From IMG/VR virus record IMGVR_UViG_3300009425_002843, positions 1 to 28,243 of that record: a DNA stretch of 28,243 nucleotides. One strand, written 5' to 3'. A program made the translations under genes and the position numbers. The notes beneath the pieces are model-generated. The model worked only from the letters and a program-made list of their open reading frames with translations, was not told the DNA's origin and ran no database searches. The DNA comes from a virus. Positions 1,557 to 21,513 of this stretch are shown piece after piece (position 1 is the first letter of the stretch; each line of letters opens with the position of its first letter).

Positions 1557-3131
1557 TTATTCTACTTGTATAATTCCATAGTTGGTGGTAATTAAAGTTC
1601 CCGCACAACTAGCAGCATTTGTAAGCGCCGTAAGCGTGACCTTTACCGGGTCGATAATCCCAGCTTCTAACATATTAATTAGTTCGCCTGTTCGAAAATC
1701 AACACCTTCGCCTGGTGAAGCATTGGTGACCTTTTCGACCATCAAATCTGGTGATAACCCTGCGTTCAGTGCCATCTGTCGAATAGGTTCCTCACAGGCA
1801 GCTTTCACTACGGTAGCGCCGAGAGCTTGTTCGGTGTTATTAGTGGAAATACATAAACTATTTGCTGCCCGGAGTAATGCGGCACCACCGCCCGTAACAA
1901 TTCCTTGTTCTTGACCGGAACGAACCGCTTCTAGAGCGTCTTCGATTCTATGTTTGCGTTCGGTCATCTCTACTTCTGTCAAACCACCAACATTGATGAC
2001 TGCTACACCGGACGACAAGCGTACGATACGGTCTTGGAAGCGCTCACAAGCCTGCAGGTCATCCGTTTGTTCTATCTGCGCCTTGAGGGCCGAGATAGTT
2101 GTTTCGACCGCCTCAAAGTCACAAGAGCCACCCACAACAGTAGTACTAAATTTAGAGGCTTCTACGAACTTTGCAGATCCCAAGTCAGACATGCGGACGT
2201 CTGATAGTTTTTGTCCGGCTTCTTTGGTAACAAAAGTAGCCCCCACTGAAAGTGCTAGGTCTGCAAGAGTATCGCGGCGCTCCTCACCATAGGCAGGAGC
2301 TTTGATACCAGCTATCTTCATAGTACCACGCATAGCATTCATAATCATGGCTGCTAGGGCTTGCCCATCAATATCTTCAGCTACAATAACGAGTGGCCGG
2401 CTTTCGCGTGCTATCATCTCCAGAATGGGCAGTACTTGCTCGACACTATTAATTTTATGATCAGTTACGAGGAATAGAGGATTATCGTGATGCATAAAAG
2501 CTCGACGCTCGTCTGTGATAAAGGCACCTGCGCAATAACCTGAGTTAATTTTAAAACCCTCTGTAATGTCCAAAGTTGTATCACGTGATCTCGACTCCTC
2601 AATAGTTATAGACCCATCTTGCCCGACACGATCCACAGCAAGAGCAATAAGGTGCCCAATAGTGCTATCATTGTTAGCAGAGATGGTAGCAATGTGTTCG
2701 ATGTCTTCCGTGCTAGTGACGGGCGTGGACATCTTTTCAAGGTTGCGTGATACTTCTCGTACTGCAAGATCAATTCCCCTCTGTAGTTCAATAGGTGATA
2801 CACCTGACGCAATAAAGCGCTGGGACTCACGCAGGATTGCGCGCGCCAACACCGTAGAGGTAGTGGTACCATCGCCGGCTGTGTTATTAGTTTCGATGGC
2901 AGCCTGACGAATAATCTGTGCGCCGGCGTCTTCGAAGGGATCATCCAGTGCAACAAAGTATGCGACCGTTACACCGTCCTTTGTAATGAAGGGCTGTTGA
3001 TCCTTCTCTTTAAGTAATACATTACGACCTCTTGGTCCCAATGTGGACGCCACGTTGTCAGCTAGGACGTTGGCGCCTTTGATAATCTTTTGCTGTAGGG
3101 TGTGGTTATTGTCATAAACTCTGCTGCTCAT
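1557..3131 (-). CDS. groEL: Chaperonin GroEL (phage-encoded, no GGM tail)
   Basis: This is a full-length group I chaperonin of 524 residues; bacterial GroEL is about 548. The ATP-binding/catalytic loop GDGTTT is at residues 86-91, giving an Asp at position 87 exactly as in E. coli. Other family landmarks are VASTLGPRGRNVLL near residue 27, KAPAYGEERRD in the apical domain and EDALEAVRSGQEQGIVTGGG, which carries the second catalytic Asp. The protein stops at TTNYGIIQVE, so the flexible Gly-Gly-Met tail that lines the E. coli cavity is absent. It is preceded by a consensus promoter. The partner GroES is encoded about 18 kb away. Its likely role is folding phage structural or replication proteins with, or in place of, host GroEL. 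Confidence 0.97.
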   Translation of the reverse strand: MSSRVYDNNHTLQQKIIKGANVLADNVASTLGPRGRNVLLKEKDQQPFITKDGVTVAYFVALDDPFEDAGAQIIRQAAIETNNTAGDGTTTSTVLARAILRESQRFIASGVSPIELQRGIDLAVREVSRNLEKMSTPVTSTEDIEHIATISANNDSTIGHLIALAVDRVGQDGSITIEESRSRDTTLDITEGFKINSGYCAGAFITDERRAFMHHDNPLFLVTDHKINSVEQVLPILEMIARESRPLVIVAEDIDGQALAAMIMNAMRGTMKIAGIKAPAYGEERRDTLADLALSVGATFVTKEAGQKLSDVRMSDLGSAKFVEASKFSTTVVGGSCDFEAVETTISALKAQIEQTDDLQACERFQDRIVRLSSGVAVINVGGLTEVEMTERKHRIEDALEAVRSGQEQGIVTGGGAALLRAANSLCISTNNTEQALGATVVKAACEEPIRQMALNAGLSPDLMVEKVTNASPGEGVDFRTGELINMLEAGIIDPVKVTLTALTNAASCAGTLITTNYGIIQVE

Positions 3132-3202: not shown

Positions 3203-4771
3203 TTATTCTGCCGCGTCTTGCTGCTGTTCAATTCCTTGTTCAGGTATAACTTCATCAACGGCGCGCTTAAGTTCTAAGGCGTTAGCCTTTGCTTGTGCTC
3301 CTTCAGAAATATCACCAGCAATAAAATAGCGGTTAATATTATCAGACAAAGCACCCAGCGAATTGAAAATAGACACTAAACTACCGTTCAAAGCTTGGGT
3401 ATATTGTATTGCTTTAGCTTCAATTGCGGTCGGATCTAAGCTAATTTGACCTTGGTAATATTCTTCTCTAGTGTAAACACCGGGAGAGACCGTCCACTGT
3501 GCGCCGCCGGCGACCTTGCTGCCGTAACCCTTTGTCTGTTTGAGTGCTGCAAACGCAGCGCGATTAATTTCTTCAGAATCGCCCTGTGCAAACTGATCCA
3601 TAACATTCCTATGTTGCTGGGGTGTGTAAAGTTTCGAAGCGGAGCCTTTTAATACATCCTCTGTTCCTATCATTTGAAGACGTAAGACTTCGGTACCTTG
3701 TGGTATCTGTTCTCGGTCACTCCACGGTATTGTATCATCGGTAGATTTATACAAAGCCATTCCCTTGGTAAGTTTTTCATCCTCCCATGGTCCATATGGA
3801 AATTGTGCTCTTTTGGGTTTAAGTTTGTCTGCGACCACGACCCGATCGAAGCGTTGGGTTTTTTTTCCCAAATTGGGAATGGTAAATGGAACATAACCAA
3901 ATACCGGCACCTCTGTTGGTGCGCCAATCATCGACATAAAGGTCTCGCGCGTTAACTCAAATTCATAAAATTTAAGCACCCCTGTCGCGACGTTCTTTCC
4001 TTCGGCGTTTTTCTCACTTTGCTTAATAGTAATCAAATAAACAAGGGAATCTGACTTACGTTGCGGTGACGGATCTAAGAAGAAGTCAACCAAGTTCTTG
4101 AAAGAACCATGGACCGGTCCCCCTTGTCGTAGCACCTTAAGACTATAAGGGACAAGATCCCACTCGGGATCCGCGTCGGGGTTTTCTGACTGGCGTTTAA
4201 GTTGCATATAAAGCTGGTTATCTTCAATCGGCAGAGTGCCTTTGGTTCCAACTTGTTCAGGGTCATCAACTTGAATCGATGTACCTCCGAATAAGGCTGC
4301 AAGAAATGCTTCAAACAGGAAACCGGTTACCGAGGCTCCGTAGTCATTAACAATACTGGCAAATGTGTCCAAAAAGATAAGGTACGACATAATTTTAGAT
4401 ATGTCGCCTCCAGCAGCCTCTGGCGGATCATCCAAGAAATTAGTAACACTTTTTATTTTTTCCTTTATGGAACCGCCTTGGATATTCTTAAGCAACGCTT
4501 CCATAACTTGTCTATCGATTCTATCGGGGTCGCCCCAAGCTTCTGTAATTTTAATGACGGGTCTTCGGATGACTGTCACGTCTTCGGAGCGCGATCCGCC
4601 CTCATCGGTAACATTGTCGCTCTCGTTTTCAGTTAATGAATATCCCGTAGATTTGATCGACAAGTTGTTAAGGGCACCCATCGTCTCCTCAATCATCTCA
4701 ATCAAGAGACTGGGAGTAACGTCCAGCTTCTTTTCGTATTCTTCTTGTAAAATCTTATGTAAGTCTGACAT
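3203..4771 (-). CDS. Conserved phage protein of unknown function, 522 aa
   Basis: I cannot assign a firm function. The N-terminal ~120 residues are charged and helical. The middle has FEAFLAALFGG, then an acidic stretch and VPYSLKVLRQGG..HGSFKNLVDFF, then LVYLITIKQ and FYEFELTRETFM. The order 'FE.F.A.L.GG ... D ... YSLK ... GS..NL' resembles the layout of PD-(D/E)XK-type folds, but no clear D..ExK pair is visible, so a nuclease call would be speculative. The C-terminal ~150 residues are helical, ending in a Glu/Gln/Ala tail. No signal peptide or membrane segment. It lies 11 nt downstream of the ClpP-like gene with AGAGGA before its ATG. A structural or head-assembly role beside a protease is an alternative. 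Confidence 0.85.
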   Translation of the reverse strand: MSDLHKILQEEYEKKLDVTPSLLIEMIEETMGALNNLSIKSTGYSLTENESDNVTDEGGSRSEDVTVIRRPVIKITEAWGDPDRIDRQVMEALLKNIQGGSIKEKIKSVTNFLDDPPEAAGGDISKIMSYLIFLDTFASIVNDYGASVTGFLFEAFLAALFGGTSIQVDDPEQVGTKGTLPIEDNQLYMQLKRQSENPDADPEWDLVPYSLKVLRQGGPVHGSFKNLVDFFLDPSPQRKSDSLVYLITIKQSEKNAEGKNVATGVLKFYEFELTRETFMSMIGAPTEVPVFGYVPFTIPNLGKKTQRFDRVVVADKLKPKRAQFPYGPWEDEKLTKGMALYKSTDDTIPWSDREQIPQGTEVLRLQMIGTEDVLKGSASKLYTPQQHRNVMDQFAQGDSEEINRAAFAALKQTKGYGSKVAGGAQWTVSPGVYTREEYYQGQISLDPTAIEAKAIQYTQALNGSLVSIFNSLGALSDNINRYFIAGDISEGAQAKANALELKRAVDEVIPEQGIEQQQDAAE

Positions 4772-5416: not shown

Positions 5417-5815
5417 TTACTTTACTAAATAGGTCCCTACGATGACATTCCTGTTGGATTCTAAATAATTCATAGCCGATTTCCAGTCAGTATAAGGTGC
5501 TACTCCTTGGAAAAAATCTGGATGAACCTCCAAAAGTAGCGATATTGAGCGACTCTTAAATGTCTCAATTTCTAGATCTAAATTCTCTTCATAAATCTTC
5601 AAGTTGCGTTCAGAGATATCCTTTTTCCGCAAGTCTTTAAGACAGAGGCTCCGGGAATATTCGAAATTCTCCAAGGCACGAGTTAGAAGAAAGAGCGAAA
5701 CAAGATTTGATATTTGTATAAGTTGAATACTAAGTCTCGCGGACTTAAAATAGTAAAACACTTTGCAGGTCAGGTATCCAAAGACAAAGACTCCTACCAT
5801 TAATAAATAATTCAT
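5417..5815 (-). CDS. Small membrane-anchored protein, 132 aa
   Basis: Residues 1-22 (MNYLLMVGVFVFGYLTCKVFYY) form a hydrophobic segment, probably one N-terminal transmembrane helix or uncleaved signal anchor. A second amphipathic hydrophobic stretch (LIQISNLVSLFLLTRAL) is near residue 32. The remainder is a charged helical domain with a possible coiled coil at residues 50-85. No catalytic motif is visible. It is the first gene after the terminator/promoter region at 5825-5891 and lies 25 nt before the ClpP-like gene. I do not recognise a family; a membrane-associated accessory role is an inference from topology only. Confidence 0.8.
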   Translation of the reverse strand: MNYLLMVGVFVFGYLTCKVFYYFKSARLSIQLIQISNLVSLFLLTRALENFEYSRSLCLKDLRKKDISERNLKIYEENLDLEIETFKSRSISLLLEVHPDFFQGVAPYTDWKSAMNYLESNRNVIVGTYLVK

Positions 5816-5824
5816 AATTCTCTA

Positions 5825-5862
5825 TAAAAAAATAACCATCGCCTTGTGAGGTCGATGGTTAT
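5825..5862 (-). terminator. Intrinsic terminator after the acidic-protein gene
   Basis: A perfect 10-bp stem (5853-5862 with 5832-5841) encloses an 11-nt loop in which CCT/AGG can pair further. On the minus strand it is followed directly by seven T residues (5825-5831) and then ATAGAG. It lies 30 bp after the stop of the gene at 5892, so it is well placed to end the operon that comes from 9742. There is no T-run on the plus strand, so it acts on minus-strand transcripts. Confidence 0.85.
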
Positions 5863-5891
5863 ATCTTAACACACTTGTATTATTTTGTCAA
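5863..5891 (-). promoter_or_regulatory. Sigma70-type promoter of the membrane-protein/clpP-like unit
   Basis: TTGACA (5886-5891) is followed after 17 bp by TAAGAT (5863-5868, 4 of 6 matches). The -35 abuts the stop codon of the upstream gene. The predicted start site, about 7 bp after the -10, would fall inside the 5' arm of the terminator stem, so transcripts starting here would lack most of that arm. Confidence 0.6.
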
Positions 5892-6524
5892 CTATTTTGT
5901 CAATCTCTTCATGATGCGTTCTGCAAGTTGGTCGACTACTTCTGCTTGGCGTCCTTGTTTCCTAAGACGCCGTGCAACACGACGAGTAACTTCAGCGAAC
6001 ATGGCGTCCGGATCTTCTTCTTCTTCTTCTTCTTCTTCGGGACCCATCGAGCCCATCTCAAATTCTTCACCCCCTTCTTCGGGCATGCCCGCGGGCTCGT
6101 CCAGCGCTGCTGGATCCATCTCTATCTCTTCTTCGCCAAATTCATCTCCGGCAGCCGGGGCTTCCTCTACGTCAACCTCGATACCGAGAACTTCTTGGGC
6201 GACTGCAGCTACTTGAGTCATGAACTCTGCAAATTTAGCCTCGACGGCCGGGTCGGGTGCTGGGGCTTCGTCGGCGCCCATATCATCCATTGGTTCGTCC
6301 ATTGGTTCGTCCATTGGGGCATCCATCGCCAATTCATCATCAACGACATCATCTTCCTGTCCTAACTCGTCCTCGGTGGCATGAAGTTCTTCATCCTCCT
6401 CATCACGGGCGCCTGGATAGCGGGCGCCCATCTCTTGAATTCTCTTTTCCCCTGCGGGACGCATATCAGCGAGCTTCATGAAGCGGCGAAGTTCGCTCTC
6501 GGTTAACAAATTCTTACGAGCCAT
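5892..6524 (-). CDS. Highly acidic low-complexity phage protein, 210 aa
   Basis: The protein begins MARKNLLTESELRRFMKLADM, a basic amphipathic start I associate with a family of marine phage proteins ('LLTE.E.RRFMKLA'). It then turns extremely acidic: DEEDEEL, DELGQEDDVVDDEL, three successive MDEP/MDD units near residues 70-81, and a run of eight Glu near residue 167. The last ~40 residues are again basic and helical (RRVARRLRKQGRQ..). This basic-acidic-basic pattern suits a prohead core/scaffold-like or DNA-mimic protein; neither is proven. AAGGAG lies 8 nt before the ATG. It is the last gene before the terminator. Confidence 0.85.
   Translation of the reverse strand: MARKNLLTESELRRFMKLADMRPAGEKRIQEMGARYPGARDEEDEELHATEDELGQEDDVVDDELAMDAPMDEPMDEPMDDMGADEAPAPDPAVEAKFAEFMTQVAAVAQEVLGIEVDVEEAPAAGDEFGEEEIEMDPAALDEPAGMPEEGGEEFEMGSMGPEEEEEEEEDPDAMFAEVTRRVARRLRKQGRQAEVVDQLAERIMKRLTK
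6013..6038. repeat. TTC/GAA microsatellite inside the acidic-protein gene
   Basis: Eight or more consecutive TTC triplets on the plus strand encode the poly-Glu run of the acidic protein. All are GAA codons, so the tract is also a DNA-level trinucleotide repeat that could change length by slippage without breaking the frame. Confidence 0.8.
6285..6320. repeat. Short tandem repeat encoding MDEP units
   Basis: Three near-identical 12-bp units (plus strand CCATTGGTTCGT, the third diverging to CCATTGGGGCAT) encode the MDEP-MDEP-type repeat of the acidic protein. The unit is a multiple of three, so copy number can vary in frame. Confidence 0.75.
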
Positions 6525-8808: not shown

Positions 8809-9293
8809 CAGGTAATATCTCCCTGTTCATCTGACTTCTCTCGAAAGTGTTGTCGGGTACCGAAAACCCAGTCGAACCAAGGACGAGTGATACACCAGTT
8901 CATATCTTGATTCGGGCCCATGTGGTGATCAAAGTGCCATGGCATGTTCTTCTTACACCATTCCAAATCCTTGTGGGCCTTGCGGTGTTTGAAGTAATAG
9001 TTGAGCGCACAATATACAAGCGTGCAGTAAAAGATTTTGGACAGATATAGAAAAGGAAGGTTGAGTGTTAAGACTCCTGCCAGTGCTAAAACCTCTAAAC
9101 CATAAAGCTCATTGTCGTGATTGAAATTCTTTCTGCAATTACGATGATGAGTTGTCCAATGGAAAGAAAAGAACGATTTGTTAGTCTTTGCTGCTTTACT
9201 ATGTAAAACGTGCTTGTGAAGCATCCACTCTCCGAAGTTCGCATATAATAATCCCGCCATAATTGTCAACAAGTATCCCAACATTACCACCAA
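8808..9293 (-). CDS. Fatty acid hydroxylase/sterol desaturase-superfamily membrane protein, 161 aa
   Basis: The histidine clusters of the di-iron fatty acid hydroxylase superfamily are all present: H26..H31 (HKHVLH), H45WTTHH50, H103..H107 (HRKAH) and H120..HH124 (HFDHH). Hydrophobic segments at about residues 4-20 and 62-98 would place the diiron site at the membrane face. The protein is shorter than bacterial hydroxylases (about 200-300 aa) but has the core. Similar genes are known in marine cyanophages as candidate auxiliary metabolic genes. The likely reaction is O2-dependent hydroxylation or desaturation of a lipid or carotenoid; the substrate is unknown. It overlaps the neighbouring genes at both ends. 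Confidence 0.85.
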   Translation of the reverse strand: MVVMLGYLLTIMAGLLYANFGEWMLHKHVLHSKAAKTNKSFFSFHWTTHHRNCRKNFNHDNELYGLEVLALAGVLTLNLPFLYLSKIFYCTLVYCALNYYFKHRKAHKDLEWCKKNMPWHFDHHMGPNQDMNWCITRPWFDWVFGTRQHFREKSDEQGDIT

Positions 9294-9742
9294 TCAGGCT
9301 TGTTCTGCTTCCAGTTAGCAATGTAAGCCTTCTCACCGTGGTAGTAGTCTCGGTAAGATGTTACAGCGCACTCGGACAAGTATTGGGTTGGCATGGCTTG
9401 AGCGTGAGGTGTGAGGGCGCCCTGTGGTATTAGATTTGATTGAGTATCACACCACTCGATGACATCTTGAGACTTATGTCGTCTACCATAGCGTGAAGTA
9501 TATTCCTCACAAAGCGCAATGCCGTGAGTGACGAGCCATTTGAAGTTAGCGCGAGTGTCTCCTGTCCACAAGGTACACGGATGGTTCTTGTGTGCTTGGC
9601 GATAGGGAGAGTCGGTGCTGCCATAGCGGATGAGCGCAGAGCACAACATTTGTGCAGACTCTAACGGCATCTTGATTACGTGCTTGTCTACTTGTTGTTG
9701 AGCGGCTGTCACTGGATTGTTGTCTAATACGAAGATGTTCAT
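9284..9742 (-). CDS. Conserved phage protein of unknown function, 152 aa
   Basis: The pattern MNIFVLDNNPVTAAQQQVDKHVIKMPLESAQML, THKNHPCTLW-like (AHKNHPCTLWTGD), NFKWL..HGIALCEEY, SRYGRRHKS, LTPHAQAMP and ANWKQNKPDWW is highly conserved in a protein family I recognise from T4-like and other phages, without a settled function. Conserved D-K-H, H-K-N-H-P-C and K-S residues look like an active site, perhaps for nucleotide or DNA chemistry. No membrane segment. Its 3' end overlaps the hydroxylase-like gene by 10 nt. It is the first gene of the unit ending at the 5825 terminator. Confidence 0.85.
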   Translation of the reverse strand: MNIFVLDNNPVTAAQQQVDKHVIKMPLESAQMLCSALIRYGSTDSPYRQAHKNHPCTLWTGDTRANFKWLVTHGIALCEEYTSRYGRRHKSQDVIEWCDTQSNLIPQGALTPHAQAMPTQYLSECAVTSYRDYYHGEKAYIANWKQNKPDWW

Positions 9743-9765
9743 GTTACCCTTTTGTTTATATTATA

Positions 9766-9793
9766 TTATAGCATAATTTTCATATGATATAAA
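9766..9793 (-). promoter_or_regulatory. Possible AT-rich promoter before the 9284-9742 gene
   Basis: The 57-bp gap contains two overlapping TATAAT hexamers on the minus strand (9766-9771 and 9761-9766). For the first, TTTATA (4 of 6 matches) lies 16 bp upstream at 9788-9793. The -35 is weak, so this is less certain than the other promoters here. Confidence 0.45.
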
Positions 9794-9799
9794 GCTTTT

Positions 9800-10033
9800 T
9801 TATGCTGCGTGGACGATTGCAACATTTGTTTCGTAAGTTATACAATAGCCATTAGATTCTGGTTTGCTAGGCGAGTTTGTCCAATGAACCCACCACCTCA
9901 TATGTTCGTCTGGGTCATTTCTCATTCCCCATGTATCTATTTTACCTGTCTTGGCGATGACCAGCCCCACTCCATAGTCATGCCACCGTGCCTTGTGTTT
10001 CACAAGATCTCCAGATTTGAGACATTCGCTCAT
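9800..10033 (-). CDS. Small SH3-like phage protein, 77 aa
   Basis: The pattern SGDLVKHKARWHDYGVGLVIAKTGKID...WGMRND...MRWWVHWTN followed by YETNVAIVHAA fits a small beta-barrel of the SH3-like type ('GDLV.h......G.GlV.......v.W'). Such proteins are common in phages and mostly uncharacterised. It starts inside the upstream gene's stop (ATGA). It is probably the last gene of the operon that begins at 13599. Confidence 0.75.
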   Translation of the reverse strand: MSECLKSGDLVKHKARWHDYGVGLVIAKTGKIDTWGMRNDPDEHMRWWVHWTNSPSKPESNGYCITYETNVAIVHAA

Positions 10034-10858: not shown

Positions 10859-11099
10859 CTAACACCTCCTGTGTTTTTTTAATGCAATTTGGGCAAAATA
10901 ATGTAACTGATTCTTTCTCTTCTCGAACCACTACCTTCCAAGAAAAGACCATCTCTCGGTCGGACTTATCGAAAGGCGCGGAACAGGCAGAACAACTTTC
11001 TGGTAAGTGTCCAAACATCATTAGTTTGTCTTCCATCGCTTGCTGACTATCGTGCTGCCGGCGTTTTGAGTCGACTGTTCTGCGCTGTTTCCGGTTCAT
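10836..11099 (-). CDS. Zinc-ribbon protein, 87 aa
   Basis: A basic MNRKQRR start is followed by CSACSAPFDKSDREMVFSW and a second knuckle FCPNCIKK, giving a CxxC...CxxC zinc ribbon (residues about 36-39 and 69-72) with strands between. I recognise this 'MNRKQRR ... CxxC ... CPxC' type from marine phages; its function is not established. The start overlaps the stop of the Dam-like methyltransferase by 4 nt. Possibly a nucleic-acid or polymerase-binding adaptor. Confidence 0.8.
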   Translation of the reverse strand: MNRKQRRTVDSKRRQHDSQQAMEDKLMMFGHLPESCSACSAPFDKSDREMVFSWKVVVREEKESVTLFCPNCIKKTQEVLDGTTKNQ

Positions 11100-11581
11100 C
11101 GTGCGAGGGCGCCCATCGCGGGGGTGGCGGTCGATCCTGTAGCCGGCTTTGTAAACACAACTACGGCAGACGGGAAAGGGGCGCAGTTTGTGCTATCGCC
11201 AAACTTTAATCTTCCCTTGATAAAGAAAACCGATTCTGCTTTCATCACATAGTCATGCCAATACTTTGTGTCGGTGCGCGCTGGAATTAACATCACTACC
11301 TTAGTATCCCAGTCTTGTCCCTCTTCATAACCTTTCTTGATCCACTCCTCGATGCCGCGGCCGTACGGAGGGTTGACAAAAACCGTGTGCCCTTTCCAGT
11401 CTTTACTTAGCCCATTTTCGGCTTCTGTATAGAAGTTGGTACACTTGGTATTGTGCGTATTCGCGCAGGGATCTAAATCAAAAGGTCCAAATCTCCAATT
11501 TAGTTTGTCGAAAAATTCTTGGGGTGTCGACCACTGTCCGGTTTTACTTGAAAACATGGTAGCTTGAGTTGCTTTGTTCAT
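11096..11581 (-). CDS. Phage DNA N6-adenine methyltransferase (Dam-like)
   Basis: FSSKTGQWSTPQEFFDKLNWRFGPFDLDPCA at the N-terminus and NPPYGRGIEEW (catalytic NPPY at residues 70-73) are diagnostic of the phage 'DNA N-6-adenine-methyltransferase' family. Residues 90-115 (VVMLIPARTDTKYWHDYV) and 120-130 (FIKGRLKFGD) complete the fold. It transfers a methyl group from SAM to adenine; the target site cannot be read from the sequence. The start abuts the stop of the next methyltransferase (TAG-ATG). The last ~12 residues are a low-complexity Thr/Ala/Gly tail. Confidence 0.93.
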   Translation of the reverse strand: MNKATQATMFSSKTGQWSTPQEFFDKLNWRFGPFDLDPCANTHNTKCTNFYTEAENGLSKDWKGHTVFVNPPYGRGIEEWIKKGYEEGQDWDTKVVMLIPARTDTKYWHDYVMKAESVFFIKGRLKFGDSTNCAPFPSAVVVFTKPATGSTATPAMGALAR

Positions 11582-12310
11582 CTAATTTTCCTTTAGTTCT
11601 TTGATTCGATGATTGGTTATGGAAACATATTTGGGTTCTAATTCAATACCAACGTAATGGCGACTACTCTTTATGGCTGCCAGTGCTGTTGTGCCGGCAC
11701 CAATACATGAGTCCAAAATAATATCGCCTTCGTTGGAGTAAGTTTCGATTAAATATTTAAATAATTCAATTGGCTTTTGAGTAGGGTGGTGCACTTTGCC
11801 TTCCGATTCAGCTGTCTTAAAGTATATTACTGTTCTTGGATATCGTAATCCCGTCTCGTTCTTCACCAAAGTAGATACTTGAGAGCCATAGACCTCGGTA
11901 GGGCGATGGGCGCGTCCTTTGTTGTAGGGATCTCCTTGGCGCATACGCGGATTATATACAGGCGGCTTACGATAAAATATACAGACGTCTTCATGCGCCC
12001 TCATAGGCATACGCTTTGCATTCAAATAACCTGTCGCTTTCGATTTCTCCCAAACCCATGTGTATTTAAAATTTTTAATATTAGAGTTTATAAGCTGACT
12101 TGTAAAAGGCTGTGAAGCTGTGAAAATCATCGGCGCGTTTAACTTACATACTCGATTATATTCAGCCCACAGAGGTTCAAAGGGTATAATAGTGTCCCAC
12201 TTGCATTGAGTTGTGCCATATGGTAAATCACAGAGTACCATATCAATCGACTTGTCTGGAAGCTCCTTTAGACGTTCTAGACAGTCCCCAGTTAAAATCT
12301 CATCAATCAC
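11582..12310 (-). CDS. Beta-class N4/N6 DNA methyltransferase
   Basis: Catalytic motif IV DLPYG is at residues 28-32 near the N-terminus. The SAM-binding motif, SCIGAGTTALAA, is near residue 206. That IV-before-I order is typical of beta-class N6/N4 methyltransferases. HHPTQKPIELFKYLI precedes it as motif X. The start is GTG, preceded by AGAGGA 8 nt upstream, within the 3' end of the nuclease-like gene (8-nt overlap). It methylates adenine-N6 or cytosine-N4 at an unknown site. Its neighbour at 12303-12890 looks like a PD-(D/E)XK nuclease, so it may protect phage DNA from that enzyme. Confidence 0.93.
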   Translation of the reverse strand: MIDEILTGDCLERLKELPDKSIDMVLCDLPYGTTQCKWDTIIPFEPLWAEYNRVCKLNAPMIFTASQPFTSQLINSNIKNFKYTWVWEKSKATGYLNAKRMPMRAHEDVCIFYRKPPVYNPRMRQGDPYNKGRAHRPTEVYGSQVSTLVKNETGLRYPRTVIYFKTAESEGKVHHPTQKPIELFKYLIETYSNEGDIILDSCIGAGTTALAAIKSSRHYVGIELEPKYVSITNHRIKELKEN

Positions 12311-12890
12311 TTTTCATGTCCTCTAAAAATGAAAGTTGTTCCTGTATTAATTCTTCGTTCAAAGTGAAACAATTCTCCTCATTAGCATAATACTTTCGCC
12401 GGCCTACACGGCCATGATCACATACGGGAAGGTAGGTAAACTTTGTTTTTAAGTAATGCCGGATGTCCTCGCGGTATAATACACATTGGCGTTCGAACAC
12501 TTCCGAAAAGTTATTCATCTTGGTGGGGCAGCTTAAAACAAAATGTGGAGGCTCTTTGTTTTCAGCTATACAATGCGCAACCACATTGGCGCAACTACTA
12601 ATCGCGCGCTGTAAGAAGCACGAATCTACATAATGCCCCTTTGCTTCTTCGACGATAAAGATTTCACCGTCACGTTCGATTGCCAAGTCTGCATCATAGC
12701 CGCCAATAGTCTTGCGATCTTTATCTTCAACCACGTTAAAACCGTGCTGCTTGTAGATAGTACTTCTGAACGCCTCATATTCTTCTCCTACGATATCTTT
12801 TGCGGCTTTTTCAGAATCTAGGCGCCAGCGCTTGTATACAGATTTGTAAAAATCCTTCTCAAAATGCTCAATATAAACTCGACTATCCAT
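12303..12890 (-). CDS. PD-(D/E)XK nuclease-like protein, possible restriction endonuclease
   Basis: The core GEEYEAFRSTIYKQHGFNVV (residues 35-54), then GGYDADLAIERDGEIFIVEEAKG (63-85), fits a PD-(D/E)XK nuclease: a helix with a conserved Glu, an Asp (D66 or D68) at the end of a strand, and E82-x-K84 on the next strand. The flanks are unrecognised, as usual for restriction enzymes. The gene overlaps the beta-class methyltransferase by 8 nt and the dUTPase by one base. A nuclease gene fused by overlap to a methyltransferase gene is the standard type II restriction-modification layout. Alternatively it could be a recombination or degradation nuclease acting on host DNA. Specificity and activity are inferred, not shown. 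Confidence 0.65.
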   Translation of the reverse strand: MDSRVYIEHFEKDFYKSVYKRWRLDSEKAAKDIVGEEYEAFRSTIYKQHGFNVVEDKDRKTIGGYDADLAIERDGEIFIVEEAKGHYVDSCFLQRAISSCANVVAHCIAENKEPPHFVLSCPTKMNNFSEVFERQCVLYREDIRHYLKTKFTYLPVCDHGRVGRRKYYANEENCFTLNEELIQEQLSFLEDMKSD

Positions 12891-13351
12891 TATCGATCGG
12901 TACTCCCTAAAGACCCGTGTCCGCGATCACTAATCGTCATTGGATAATCATATAGATTGCCCTCGGTGCGTTCAATCGCACGGAAATGAACGACAGGAAT
13001 CAGTACGACTTGCGCGATCTTCATGCCGGCAGTGATGAACTGTGGTTCTAAACCAATGTTGTGAAGATTGACGAACACTTCTCCGTCATACCCGCTGTCC
13101 ACTACACAGGCTCCTACAAGAAGATGTAGCTTTGCGGCGTTCCCTGAACGATTTTTTACTTCAAGCATATAGCCATGTGGGATCCCAAACTTCAAGCCGG
13201 TCGGCAGAACCACCGATTCACCAGACCTTAACCACCGTCCTGCAGCGTTTTTTTCTTCCGGGCAGTAAAATAAATCAAGCCCAGCGTCAGATGGGTTCGC
13301 GCGGTCGGGTGTCCGTGCCTTTGCACGAGTCTTTGAAAATTCAAGAATCAC
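12890..13351 (-). CDS. dut: dUTPase
   Basis: Trimeric-type dUTP diphosphatase of 153 aa with all five motifs in order: DAGLDLF (residues 22-28), VKNRSGNA with the substrate-contacting Ser, ACVVDSGYDGEVFV, AQVVLIPV and RGHGSLGSTD at the C-terminus. It hydrolyses dUTP to dUMP and PPi, keeping uracil out of phage DNA and feeding thymidylate synthesis. The start codon is GTG, overlapping the upstream stop as GTGA. Its 3' end shares one base with the nuclease-like gene (TAATG). Confidence 0.97.
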   Translation of the reverse strand: MILEFSKTRAKARTPDRANPSDAGLDLFYCPEEKNAAGRWLRSGESVVLPTGLKFGIPHGYMLEVKNRSGNAAKLHLLVGACVVDSGYDGEVFVNLHNIGLEPQFITAGMKIAQVVLIPVVHFRAIERTEGNLYDYPMTISDRGHGSLGSTDR

Positions 13352-13624: not shown

Positions 13625-13653
13625 ATTATAGCTAAGTTAGGACTGAAAGTCAA
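13625..13653 (-). promoter_or_regulatory. Sigma70-type promoter of the dUTPase/methyltransferase operon
   Basis: TTGACT (13648-13653, 5 of 6) and TATAAT (13625-13630, perfect) are separated by 17 bp on the minus strand. The -35 overlaps the last codons of the J-domain gene. The first gene of the operon starts 26 bp beyond the -10. Confidence 0.88.
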
Positions 13654-14357
13654 GTGTTTTTTTGAGGAACTTCAAAACCAAATAATTGTTGGAGGAAACT
13701 GCGAATCAGATTGTCTCGCCTATCATCGGAATCACAATCATAAAAGAGATAGTTATATGTTTGCGTAGCTTTTTGAATTGAGTTTCTCAATCTTTTCTGC
13801 TCTGTTTCCATCCAGCTTATTTGTTCATTATAATTCTTTGGCAACTCAATGTCAAGTTCTTCTGCCATTTCTAGTAATTTAAAGTACTGTTGCTTGTCTA
13901 GCGCCTGCTTTGCCTCTTTGAACGCTTCCTCAAACAAGTCTCTAGTGAAGTCGTCGCGGGCTTTGTCGGGATGAACATGGGTCGCTATAGCCTTAAATAG
14001 TCGTGTGAATGTCTCATGCATCTCCTTGTCGATAGCAACTTCCCCTTCTTCACCAACAGATCCTTGAAATTTGATGACTGCGGTTTCTTCGACTGGTGAT
14101 GCTTTTTGTTCTTCTATCTGTTCATCAGAAAGTTGTCCTAGGTTTTTCTCGACCCCATACATCTCTCTTACTCTTTCGGCATGTTTAGCATTTAGCTCTG
14201 CGATGTCGATGCCGTGTTCGGCGCAGAACTTCTCATAGTATTCTTGAAATTCTGGACCAGAGGATTTAGCCACTTCACATATTATAGTATGCTCTTCGTG
14301 GAGAAAACGAAGCCCGTTAAGCGATCGTTTCCATCGAAATTGAGTAGAGGTAGGCAT
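13650..14357 (-). CDS. J-domain-containing phage protein, 235 aa
   Basis: Residues 116-160 read TFTRLFKAIATHVHPDKARDD....LFEEAFKEAKQAL, which is helix II, the HPDK loop (H129-P-D-K132) and helix III of a DnaJ J-domain. Unlike classic DnaJ, this domain is central rather than N-terminal, with a ~110-residue charged region before it and a ~75-residue helical region after it (WMETEQKRLRNSIQKA). There is no Gly/Phe region or zinc domain. It probably recruits or stimulates the host DnaK ATPase for a specific phage client. It shares the transcription unit of DnaE and a ClpP-like protease. Confidence 0.85.
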   Translation of the reverse strand: MPTSTQFRWKRSLNGLRFLHEEHTIICEVAKSSGPEFQEYYEKFCAEHGIDIAELNAKHAERVREMYGVEKNLGQLSDEQIEEQKASPVEETAVIKFQGSVGEEGEVAIDKEMHETFTRLFKAIATHVHPDKARDDFTRDLFEEAFKEAKQALDKQQYFKLLEMAEELDIELPKNYNEQISWMETEQKRLRNSIQKATQTYNYLFYDCDSDDRRDNLIRSFLQQLFGFEVPQKNT

Positions 14358-14981: not shown

Positions 14982-17900
14982 TTATCCTAATAGCCTAAAC
15001 GTTTTACCAATTGCATATGTAGAGAATCCCCAGTTTTCATCGTATTTGAGCTTTGCCATGTAGGGGTGATTAATGCGGATTGTGTCTTTGTGTGGCTTAA
15101 CGCCCCAGCATCGAATACGCGTTGATTCGTTATTCGAATCAATCACTTCCACGATCCAATATAGCTTACCGTTCTTGGTCTTGCGCTCAATAATCTTTCG
15201 CGGAATAAACCAACACAGTGTTAACCCAGGATCGAATTCGGAGATTGGCGGAACAAATTTCTCTTTAAGCTTCTCAATCTTTTCTGGTCCTATGACCAAG
15301 TTGATAGGGAAGACACCAGTCAAGTCTGTCTTAAACTGGATAATTTCTTCGCGACTAAAATCTCCTTCAGGGTAGTAAGTCTTAATATTTTCTCCCAGTC
15401 TTTTGAGATTCTTGGGGCGATCAACAACGCATGCTGACCAGAAATGTTTCATTCCTGTGAAGCGGTCGTCAAGAAGCTCGTCCAAAGCTCCACCGCGACA
15501 AAGAGCGTCTAGACACTTCTTGTTCAACTTGGAATATATAACATTCTCGTTGAAAAGCAGATCTTCAGCGCTGTGGAATGGGCGATGGTCAAGAACTTGC
15601 TGAATAGCCGATGCGCCAAATCCCTTGATAGAGGTCAGCGGTTGAATAAGCGTTTTGCCATCATCACTAATCTCCCACACAACTCCTGATTTGTTGATGT
15701 CCAGCGGAGCAATATCGAATCCGTATTTCTTTGCAATGTTAATCGCTTTTTCTTTTCTGCTCTCGGGTTCTTTGTCGAGGAATGCTGCCATCCATTCTGC
15801 GGGATAGTAGTTCCACAGCCAAGCACATTGGAAAGAGATGATACTGTATGATACGGCATGCGATTTGTTGAAACCGTAGCCGGAGAAGTATTCAAACTTA
15901 TCCCATAGCCCTTGAGAAACATCAACGTTAATACCATTCGCGGCACAACCGTTGATAAACTTATCATGAAGTTTTCCCTTAACACTGTTCTTGCCGGTGC
16001 CCTTCTTGGTCAACACCTTGCGGAGCATATTACCCTCGTCAAGCGTCAGCCCGCCAAGCTTATGAGCCAATAGGGCAATCTGCTCCTGGAAGATAAGGAA
16101 TCCGTAAGTCTCTTCGGTGATTTCTTGCGATGCCTCCGAAATATATGAAATGTGATGAGGGTGTCTTTTTGCCTCCACATAATCCGCATCAACGCCTGCC
16201 GACAATGGACCAGGACGAAAGATAGAAGTAACAGCAGAAATATCAACAATACTATTCGGCTTGGCGCGTTTGCAGAAACTTTGTGCTCCTTGCTCGGTGA
16301 ACTGGAAGATACCCGCCCACTTTCCAGCATGGAAAACGTTTTCATAAACCTCCTGATTGTTAAAATCCAAATTATCTGGGTGGAGGTTTTTATCGTAGTA
16401 TTCACGGATCTGGGCGAATGTTGGGTTCTGCACATTATGGTGGCGACGAAGGACATGCTCAATACACCCCTCCATCATTTTCAGTGTTGATAATCCAAGT
16501 AAGTCAAACTTAATGAAACCCATGGGCTCAAGGTGCCGAACGTTCTGTCCTTCTGCCCACGGTACCTGTCGTACACCACCGCTATTAATTAACGGCATGC
16601 TACGGTCTAGGTTCTCGGCGATAACTACGCCGCCGGCGTGGCGACTACAAGATCGAACTTGTCCGACTAGCCCCTCAACATGAGCTTTGACTGTGGGGTA
16701 CTTATTCAAGTACTTTTGGAGAGATGGTGAAAACTCCATCACCTCTTCCCAAGTCGGTGCATAAACACCAGCCTTGATCCCGTGCTTTTTCTTTGCTTCG
16801 GGGGTGGCTTCGCGGATCATGACAGAAGTAATGGTGTTTACTTCCGTAAAAGGAATGTTGTAAAGTTTAGAAATGTCTTTAATCAAACTGCGTAGTTGCA
16901 AAGTGTTCCAGTTAGAGATTGGTGCCACACAATCCTTCCCCCACATGTCAACCAGCTTCTCTTTGATCATCATGCTGTCTGATATATCATAATCAATATC
17001 TGGGTAATCAGTAGCATCTGATCGCAAGAAGCGTGAGAACAGAAGTCCATATTTGATTGGATCAACTTGTGTGATGCCTAATGCGTATGCAACTAATGAG
17101 CCGGCTGCAGAGCCGCGACCGGGGCCTGTTAGCATCATATCTGTTGCGGTATCAGCGATCGCTTTCATCGTCAGGAAATATTTGCTGAACCCTCGATCAT
17201 CGATAACGTCAAGCTCAAGCTTTAGACGGTCTATGTATTCTTGATTCTTATGAAAACCTGTTGACTCTAACCCATTGACTGCCGCTCGGACTAAAGCTTG
17301 GGTTGCTGTTAATCCTTCGGGGACAACAAAATCAGGCAGGCGTACTGTTGTGTCCGGCAAGAAGGATTCAATCCTCTCATACGCTATCTGATGAGTCTCT
17401 TCTATACTCTTGCGTACTAGATCGTCGTCGTATTCTTCTCCTTGGAGTTTCGAGTACCTCTTATATGATTCCCACATCTGATCGCCATTCTTTGGATAAA
17501 GCTCATATCCAATAGCATCAGTTGATTGGGGGAGAACGCTTTCATCCTCGCCTTCGTCTGTCTTCCATGATGGCTTGCCTTTTCCGAGCCAGCCGAGTTG
17601 CTTATACATCTCCCGGTCTTTCCAGGCGCCGGGAGTTGGATAGTGGCTATCAGCCGTTGAGATCATCTTAAGATTAAACTCTTTAGCAATCTGGATTATG
17701 TATTTATTTAGATCGTGCTGTTCGGGGATGTTGTTCCACTGCAGTTCTGCGTACCAGCGATCTCCAAAGATAGAGACCATTTCTCTTGTTGTTTCGCGCA
17801 TAGCCTCTAAAACGACTTCAGGTCCCGCCTCTCGGTTCTCCCAGTAGTTGCCGGCGTATACCCCTCCCAAGCATGCAGACGCGGCTATAACGCCCTCTGA

Positions 17901-21231: not shown

Positions 21232-21513
21232 TTATGTAACAGTAATCCCTACTATATAATTATCTTGAATTATAGTAAATAGGTTATTGTCCACATTAAC
21301 TTCCTCAATCATGGACTTATCTACAATCACACCGGCGCGATATGACAATCTCTCGGCGAACCTTACGTCATCTGCCCAAGATATCGCAATTGCTGACACG
21401 AATTTATCGTCTTGAATTTTAAAATCATCTGGAAGGACTACTCCGCTTTCCGTTTTATTCTCATTTTCGTCTTTTATTTCAATTAAAATATATCTGTTAA
21501 CTGGTTGGAACAT
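21232..21513 (-). CDS. groES: Co-chaperonin GroES-like protein
   Basis: A 93-aa beta-barrel protein: PVNRYILIEI is the first strand (as PLHDRVIV in GroES), KTESGVVLPDDF is the mobile loop with the GxVL tripeptide that docks into GroEL, and LFTIIQDNYIVGITVT is the C-terminal strand pair. The middle diverges (FVSAIAISWADDVRF..), as in T4 gp31-type co-chaperonins. It shares one base with the RNR stop (TAATG). The matching GroEL is about 18 kb away in another unit, so stoichiometry is not set by a shared operon. Confidence 0.85.
   Translation of the reverse strand: MFQPVNRYILIEIKDENENKTESGVVLPDDFKIQDDKFVSAIAISWADDVRFAERLSYRAGVIVDKSMIEEVNVDNNLFTIIQDNYIVGITVT

Follow-up and report, generated by a model that had tools for sequence, protein, structure and literature searches.

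Two overlapping genes in the window, which is the whole stretch of DNA that was analysed (a virus record of 28,243 bases), encode a putative nuclease (NUC) and a DNA methyltransferase (MT1) that quite probably constitute a Type II-like restriction-modification (R-M) pair, housed in an exchangeable slot and aimed at unmodified DNA of the host or of rival phages. A restriction-modification pair had been proposed from the letters of the window without database searches (hereafter the sequence-only reading), and the proposal gains support from the predicted fold of NUC, from the overlapping pair being kept in other phages, and from the unrelated nuclease-methylase pairs that sister phages carry in that slot. 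Since both genes are under purifying selection, the fold prediction is confident and of the restriction type, and homologues of NUC and MT1 repeatedly occur together, the pairing goes beyond chance.

The NUC and MT1 genes and their operon

The large ORFs of the window lie on the minus strand, and we take them to encode RecA, a deaminase, an exonuclease, a helicase, ribonucleotide reductase, GroES, an amidase, a DnaE-type polymerase, two ClpP-like proteases, a J-domain-like protein, dUTPase, NUC, MT1, a further methyltransferase (MT2), thioredoxin, an IMPDH-like enzyme, and GroEL; outside the set scanned with profiles, these names were assigned by reading motifs and from general knowledge. NUC (12303-12890, minus strand) is a 195-aa protein with a predicted PD-(D/E)XK restriction fold and a candidate Type II-like restriction endonuclease, as judged from its ORF, its predicted fold, and its dN/dS. 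Its start overlaps the stop of the dUTPase gene (12890-13351, minus strand; PF00692, 6.8e-15) by 1 nt (TAATG), and its own stop overlaps the GTG start of MT1 (242 aa; 11582-12310, minus strand) by 8 nt (12303-12310, minus strand), while MT2 (11096-11581, minus strand; PF05869, 6.4e-34) starts directly after the end of MT1 (11581/11582). The sequence-only reading had called the 8-nt overlap correctly and had set the pair between dUTPase and a second adenine methyltransferase, which are found upstream and downstream, respectively. The pair itself is also real, but it lies at 11582-12890 on the minus strand, whereas the range first given for it (12303-13351) contains NUC and dUTPase and leaves out MT1. 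The nuclease gene comes first and no controller gene was seen. A promoter scan of the region gave 7 against a mean of 4.8 (sd 2.2) in shuffles, which is no clear excess, so we claim no promoter of its own for MT1. The window also holds a set of chaperone genes that is unusually full for a phage, namely a J-domain-like gene with an HPD stretch (13650-14357) and GroEL-like (1557-3131) and GroES-like (21232-21513) genes, the latter two far apart.

By its sequence, MT1 is a beta-class DNA methyltransferase, matching PF01555 (2e-25), phrog_67 (1.2e-69), and the PADLOC Type II methyltransferase profile PDLC03251 (2.6e-76). This agrees with the class first read from its motifs, as motif IV (DLPYG, residues 28-32; 12215-12229, minus strand) precedes an LDSCIGAGTT stretch near the C-terminus, which is the beta-class order. 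Its closest relatives in isolated phages are ~50% identical. MT2 is a phage Dam-type adenine methyltransferase that matches TIGR01712 in addition to PF05869. Purifying selection on both NUC and MT1 is strong (dN/dS about 0.03): between the window and the related locus L086, dN/dS was 0.032 for NUC, 0.027 for MT1, and 0.032 for dnaE, values that are approximate because dS in this comparison is 1.1-1.4 and thus near saturation.

An exchangeable slot for unrelated cassettes

The interval between dUTPase or orf83 and MT2 is an exchangeable slot for unrelated cassettes, with near-random turnover. Sister phages were gathered by dnaE and by MT2, with duplicates removed by the sequence around MT2, and 103 distinct loci had both borders, dUTPase (as in the window) or orf83 on the left and MT2 on the right. 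MT2 is present with or without a cassette; in the 44 empty loci, dUTPase or orf83 meets it directly or nearly so (usually with a 1-4 nt overlap), and the remaining 59 are wider (gap >150 nt), 51 of them with an ORF of 150 aa or more. A nuclease-like ORF accompanies a beta MTase in the window, L094, L100, L116, L136/L149/L152/L235, and L139, and a D12 MTase in L122 and L144/L193/L229; larger gene sets fill the slot in L097, L110, and L124, and an MTase alone or fused in L128 and L138. Here, nuclease-like denotes D...E/D-x-K or HNH-type motifs recognized by eye, unless a profile match is given, as for the partner ORFs in L136 and L149, which match REase_II PDLC03515 at 5e-6 and 3e-6, respectively. 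Among 79 occupant ORFs, Pfam identified 18 with PF01555 and up to 10 with D12 (some proteins match both), together with four GHKL ATPases, three HNH proteins, one Eco57I, and one PDDEXK_5. The occupants form many unrelated clusters, some of which are not R-M-like (cytochrome c, ORFs without an assigned function). On a quick dnaE tree (76 rows), the empty or filled state changes 25 times, compared with 25.7 for shuffled labels, and the full set of cassette labels requires 37 changes, compared with a possible minimum of 28. L136, L139, L144, and L186 illustrate this turnover at short distance, with 96-99% identity in dnaE, 85-98% in MT2, and four unrelated cassettes.

Several occupants merit description in their own right. 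In L163, a 97-aa ORF (8849-9141) corresponds to the 208-aa nuclease of the L096 type minus its middle, in frame, and stands beside an intact MTase (9142-9885), so that the cutter is lost and the protector kept. Nuclease-like ORFs for which MT2 is the sole adjacent MTase are found in L096 (9084-9710), L219 (1697-2323), L106 (15574-16143), and L125 (7798-8394), and decay, an inactive nuclease, or protection by MT2 are possibilities for these four. GHKL/HATPase_c_3 ATPases of 488-582 aa occur in L097 (16100-17566, followed by a beta MTase), L191 (4396-5937), L195 (1351-3093), and L199 (4244-5992), and might form part of a multi-gene system for defence or modification that has so far gone unrecognised. 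In six slots (L105, at 15366-16790, L108, L186, L194, L201, and L207), the only occupant is a 474-aa protein whose C-terminus bears an HNH motif, and L173 has a short cytochrome c-like protein (5672-6004; Pfam Cytochrom_C, 8.6e-8). One close relative, L090 (15063-15778), is without NUC, MT1, and MT2, its dUTPase being followed directly by orf87.

The genomes of relatives of the window phage are about 200 kb. Six long records of the family (185-205 kb, not proven complete) yielded neither a tyrosine integrase (PF00589) nor a serine recombinase (PF00239), and we therefore call the family apparently virulent. The same six records also contain no PF01555 match, and no PF01555 cassette was seen in their slots, which ties the PF01555 MTases to the slot.

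Sporadic cassettes with fast turnover would also be expected of a selfish or addiction module, whether R-M or homing-like, that persists by excluding cassette-free relatives and brings the phage no benefit against hosts. R-M genes can serve as stabilising elements (PMC4176335), and one slot occupant does match a homing-endonuclease profile (PDLC03700). We consider this unlikely, since the non-homologous cassettes have only the site in common and a single element cannot explain the slot, and since NUC and MT1 are so strongly conserved; moreover, such a module would still be an R-M pair in mechanical terms, and so overlaps with the explanation that we prefer.

Pairing, family, and predicted fold of NUC

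Homologues of NUC and MT1 overlap in five lineages, namely that of the window (with L001-L004), L011, L012, L013, and L255, and a nuclease-MTase gene overlap of 4-17 nt was also seen in L086, L009, L011, L012, L013, L018, and L255. In L255, the pair is found elsewhere, preceding homologues of two window genes, the small regulator-like ORF and ClpP, and NUC-MT1 thus appears to move as a unit. Other arrangements exist: in L248, from a 464-kb record, NUC adjoins a different, convergent beta MTase, and the L246/L247/L250 lineage and L256 have NUC without an adjacent MTase, the 30-kb L250 record carrying a PF01555 MTase away from NUC. The MT1 homologues of L009 and L018 are preceded by another nuclease with an E-C-K motif that matches PADLOC REase_II PDLC03499 (1.5e-7 and 2.8e-9, respectively); PDB matches of the L009 nuclease (E 0.5-0.95) were dismissed as chance. 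L018 has the dnaE and dUTPase of the family, and its REase_II nuclease and MT1-like MTase are located between these two genes (3358-4660), so that dUTPase separates them from the position of the usual slot.

These arrangements bear upon the view that MT1 is an anti-restriction methyltransferase directed against a host restriction enzyme, with NUC as an unrelated neighbouring nuclease. Solitary MTases are frequent in phages (PMC4176335), MT1 relatives are present in 1161 phage records, most of the more distant ones that were inspected (L020-L030) have no nuclease-like neighbour, and NUC likewise has lineages in which no MTase is adjacent. Nevertheless, NUC and MT1 overlap in all five lineages at more than one genome position, and other nuclease-MTase pairs recur in the same slot, which makes this view very doubtful.

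NUC matched no profile in Pfam, PHROG, NCBIfam, or PADLOC, no PDB sequence, and no characterised restriction enzyme by sequence. As restriction endonucleases diverge fast, the missing match to a known family is not decisive. Four viral contigs carry NUC at 91-92% identity, each with the same MT1, and more distant relatives (30-45% identity) were found in L011, L012, L013, L246-L248, L255, and L256 by inspecting the genes that precede MT1 homologues and by a profile search. A tblastn search with NUC and the L248 homologue gave no match in isolated phages and plasmids, and a pattern-based scan of genome contigs returned a single relative, on a MAG contig with phage-like neighbours, suggesting that the family is rare in bacteria as far as a pattern-based scan can tell. 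In an alignment of 11 sequences, D68, E81, E82, K84, G85, Y87, D89, R95, and A96 are invariant, with D68, E82, and K84 kept across the 30-92% identity range. The sequence-only reading had placed D66, D68, E82, and K84 exactly where the translation has them, and D66 is not conserved. The predicted catalytic region of NUC spans 12639-12689 (minus strand), with the codons of D68, E82, and K84 at 12687-12689, 12645-12647, and 12639-12641, respectively.

The AlphaFold2 model of NUC built from 11 homologous sequences has a mean pLDDT of 94.1 and a pTM of 0.90, and it supersedes a poor first model (pLDDT 61) built from near-identical sequences only. It contains helices at 3-24, 30-48, and 90-109 and strands at 69-73, 76-83, 116-121, and 151-155. 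D68 lies at the first of these strands and E82-x-K84 where the second one ends, as in the PD-(D/E)XK arrangement. The fold check that had been suggested at the outset thus returned the expected class, with the best alignments to Type II restriction enzymes and NucC. VIA-align ranked BbvCI at the top (Z 11.4, 3.4 A over 166 residues), followed by NucC (11.3), PspGI (10.0), Kpn2I (9.6), SgrAI (9.5), Cfr10I (8.3), and Ecl18kI (8.2), with BsoBI and BsaWI also among the highest matches. The top Foldseek matches include EcoT38I (probability 0.99, E 3.9e-3), NucS/EndoMS, and the small subunit of R.BspD6I, with all E-values against the PDB >1e-3, and Hjc is also among the structural matches. NucC is a sequence-nonspecific effector of CBASS, and because it ranks level with the restriction enzymes, the fold is no proof of sequence specificity. 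Assignment of NUC itself to CBASS finds no backing, as NUC has no PADLOC match and a scan of seven neighbours revealed no CD-NTase; the immediate neighbours are dUTPase, orf83, MT1, and MT2. On its model, NUC is a probable restriction-type PD-(D/E)XK nuclease. That NUC is instead a broad-specificity nuclease of host takeover or recombination (host DNA breakdown, Holliday junctions, repair), with MT1 marking phage DNA outside any site-specific R-M, would suit the nucleotide-metabolism setting, the Hjc and NucS/EndoMS matches, and the tie of NucC with BbvCI, but is decidedly improbable given that the Type II enzymes align to the whole chain (about 150-167 residues, Z 8-11) and score above NucS (104-110 residues, Z 6.7-6.8), and that a housekeeping nuclease is not expected in a slot swapped near-randomly among sister phages.

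Proposed role and comparison with known systems

Under the R-M reading, NUC would act as a site-specific, probably dimeric, endonuclease, and MT1 would methylate the site of NUC in phage DNA; an incoming phage genome would presumably arrive already methylated from the previous cycle. The nuclease-first order, with neither a controller gene nor a clear promoter for MT1 in view, could endanger a bacterium that takes up the pair, but it would be harmless to a lytic phage with a pre-methylated genome and would suit it. The unmodified host chromosome may be one target, its cleavage feeding the neighbouring dUTPase, ribonucleotide reductase, and deaminase pathway, and co-infecting phages with a different cassette may be another. 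The nucleotide-metabolism context favours recycling of host DNA, which is compatible with rival exclusion, and the near-random turnover among close siblings favours exclusion of rivals or evasion of their enzymes. The swapping of cassettes among sister phages fits phage-phage competition better than a fixed housekeeping role. We give even chances to a broader proposal, in which a virulent family maintains a dedicated slot in its replication operon for swappable R-M weapons, including an unnamed restriction endonuclease family found almost only on viral contigs, and in which these weapons drive exclusion among near-identical siblings. Sibling phages whose main difference lies in the slot make host-DNA recycling and rival exclusion directly testable against each other, and the cassettes supply unnamed nucleases, each with a methylase partner, as candidate new restriction enzymes.

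According to a 2014 survey (2261 prokaryote genomes and phage records), R-M is nearly absent from non-integrated phages (PMC4176335), whereas the single phage family described here has a wide variety of R-M-type pairs in one slot. Neither a direct precedent for a phage R-M swap slot nor a case of interchangeable R-M-type pairs sharing one slot in apparently virulent phages turned up in the open-access literature that we searched. Several known systems are nonetheless comparable. Chloroviruses and marseilleviruses also encode an adjacent MTase and restriction endonuclease, thought to degrade host DNA in the former (PMC7019647) and proposed to exclude rival viruses in the latter (PMC7253447), but these viruses infect eukaryotes, whereas the genome here is of the bacteriophage type and has one slot in which unrelated cassettes replace one another. 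The Mom-REase fusions predicted in jumbo phages likewise join a modification domain that protects phage DNA to a domain of restriction endonuclease fold, with a predicted attack on host or superinfecting DNA (PMC7824862); these rely on momylation and are fused, whereas NUC and MT1 are separate overlapping genes in an exchange slot, of which the parts of that account drawn on here describe none. The anti-phage hotspots of P2-like prophages and P4 satellites (PMC9122126) are, like the slot, small (about 1-5 kb) variable loci between conserved genes with fast turnover and with nuclease and defence genes. Their carriers are temperate, whereas no integrase or resolvase was found in the six records of 185-205 kb, and the slot differs further in lying within a replication and nucleotide operon and in being rich in MTase pairs. 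With the Type II R-M systems, the window shares a predicted restriction-type PD-(D/E)XK nuclease gene overlapping a separate, closely linked gene for a beta-class DNA methyltransferase; the NUC-MT1 pair departs from them in its location in an apparently virulent phage operon, its nuclease-first order with no controller gene seen, and a nuclease that lacks a curated profile.
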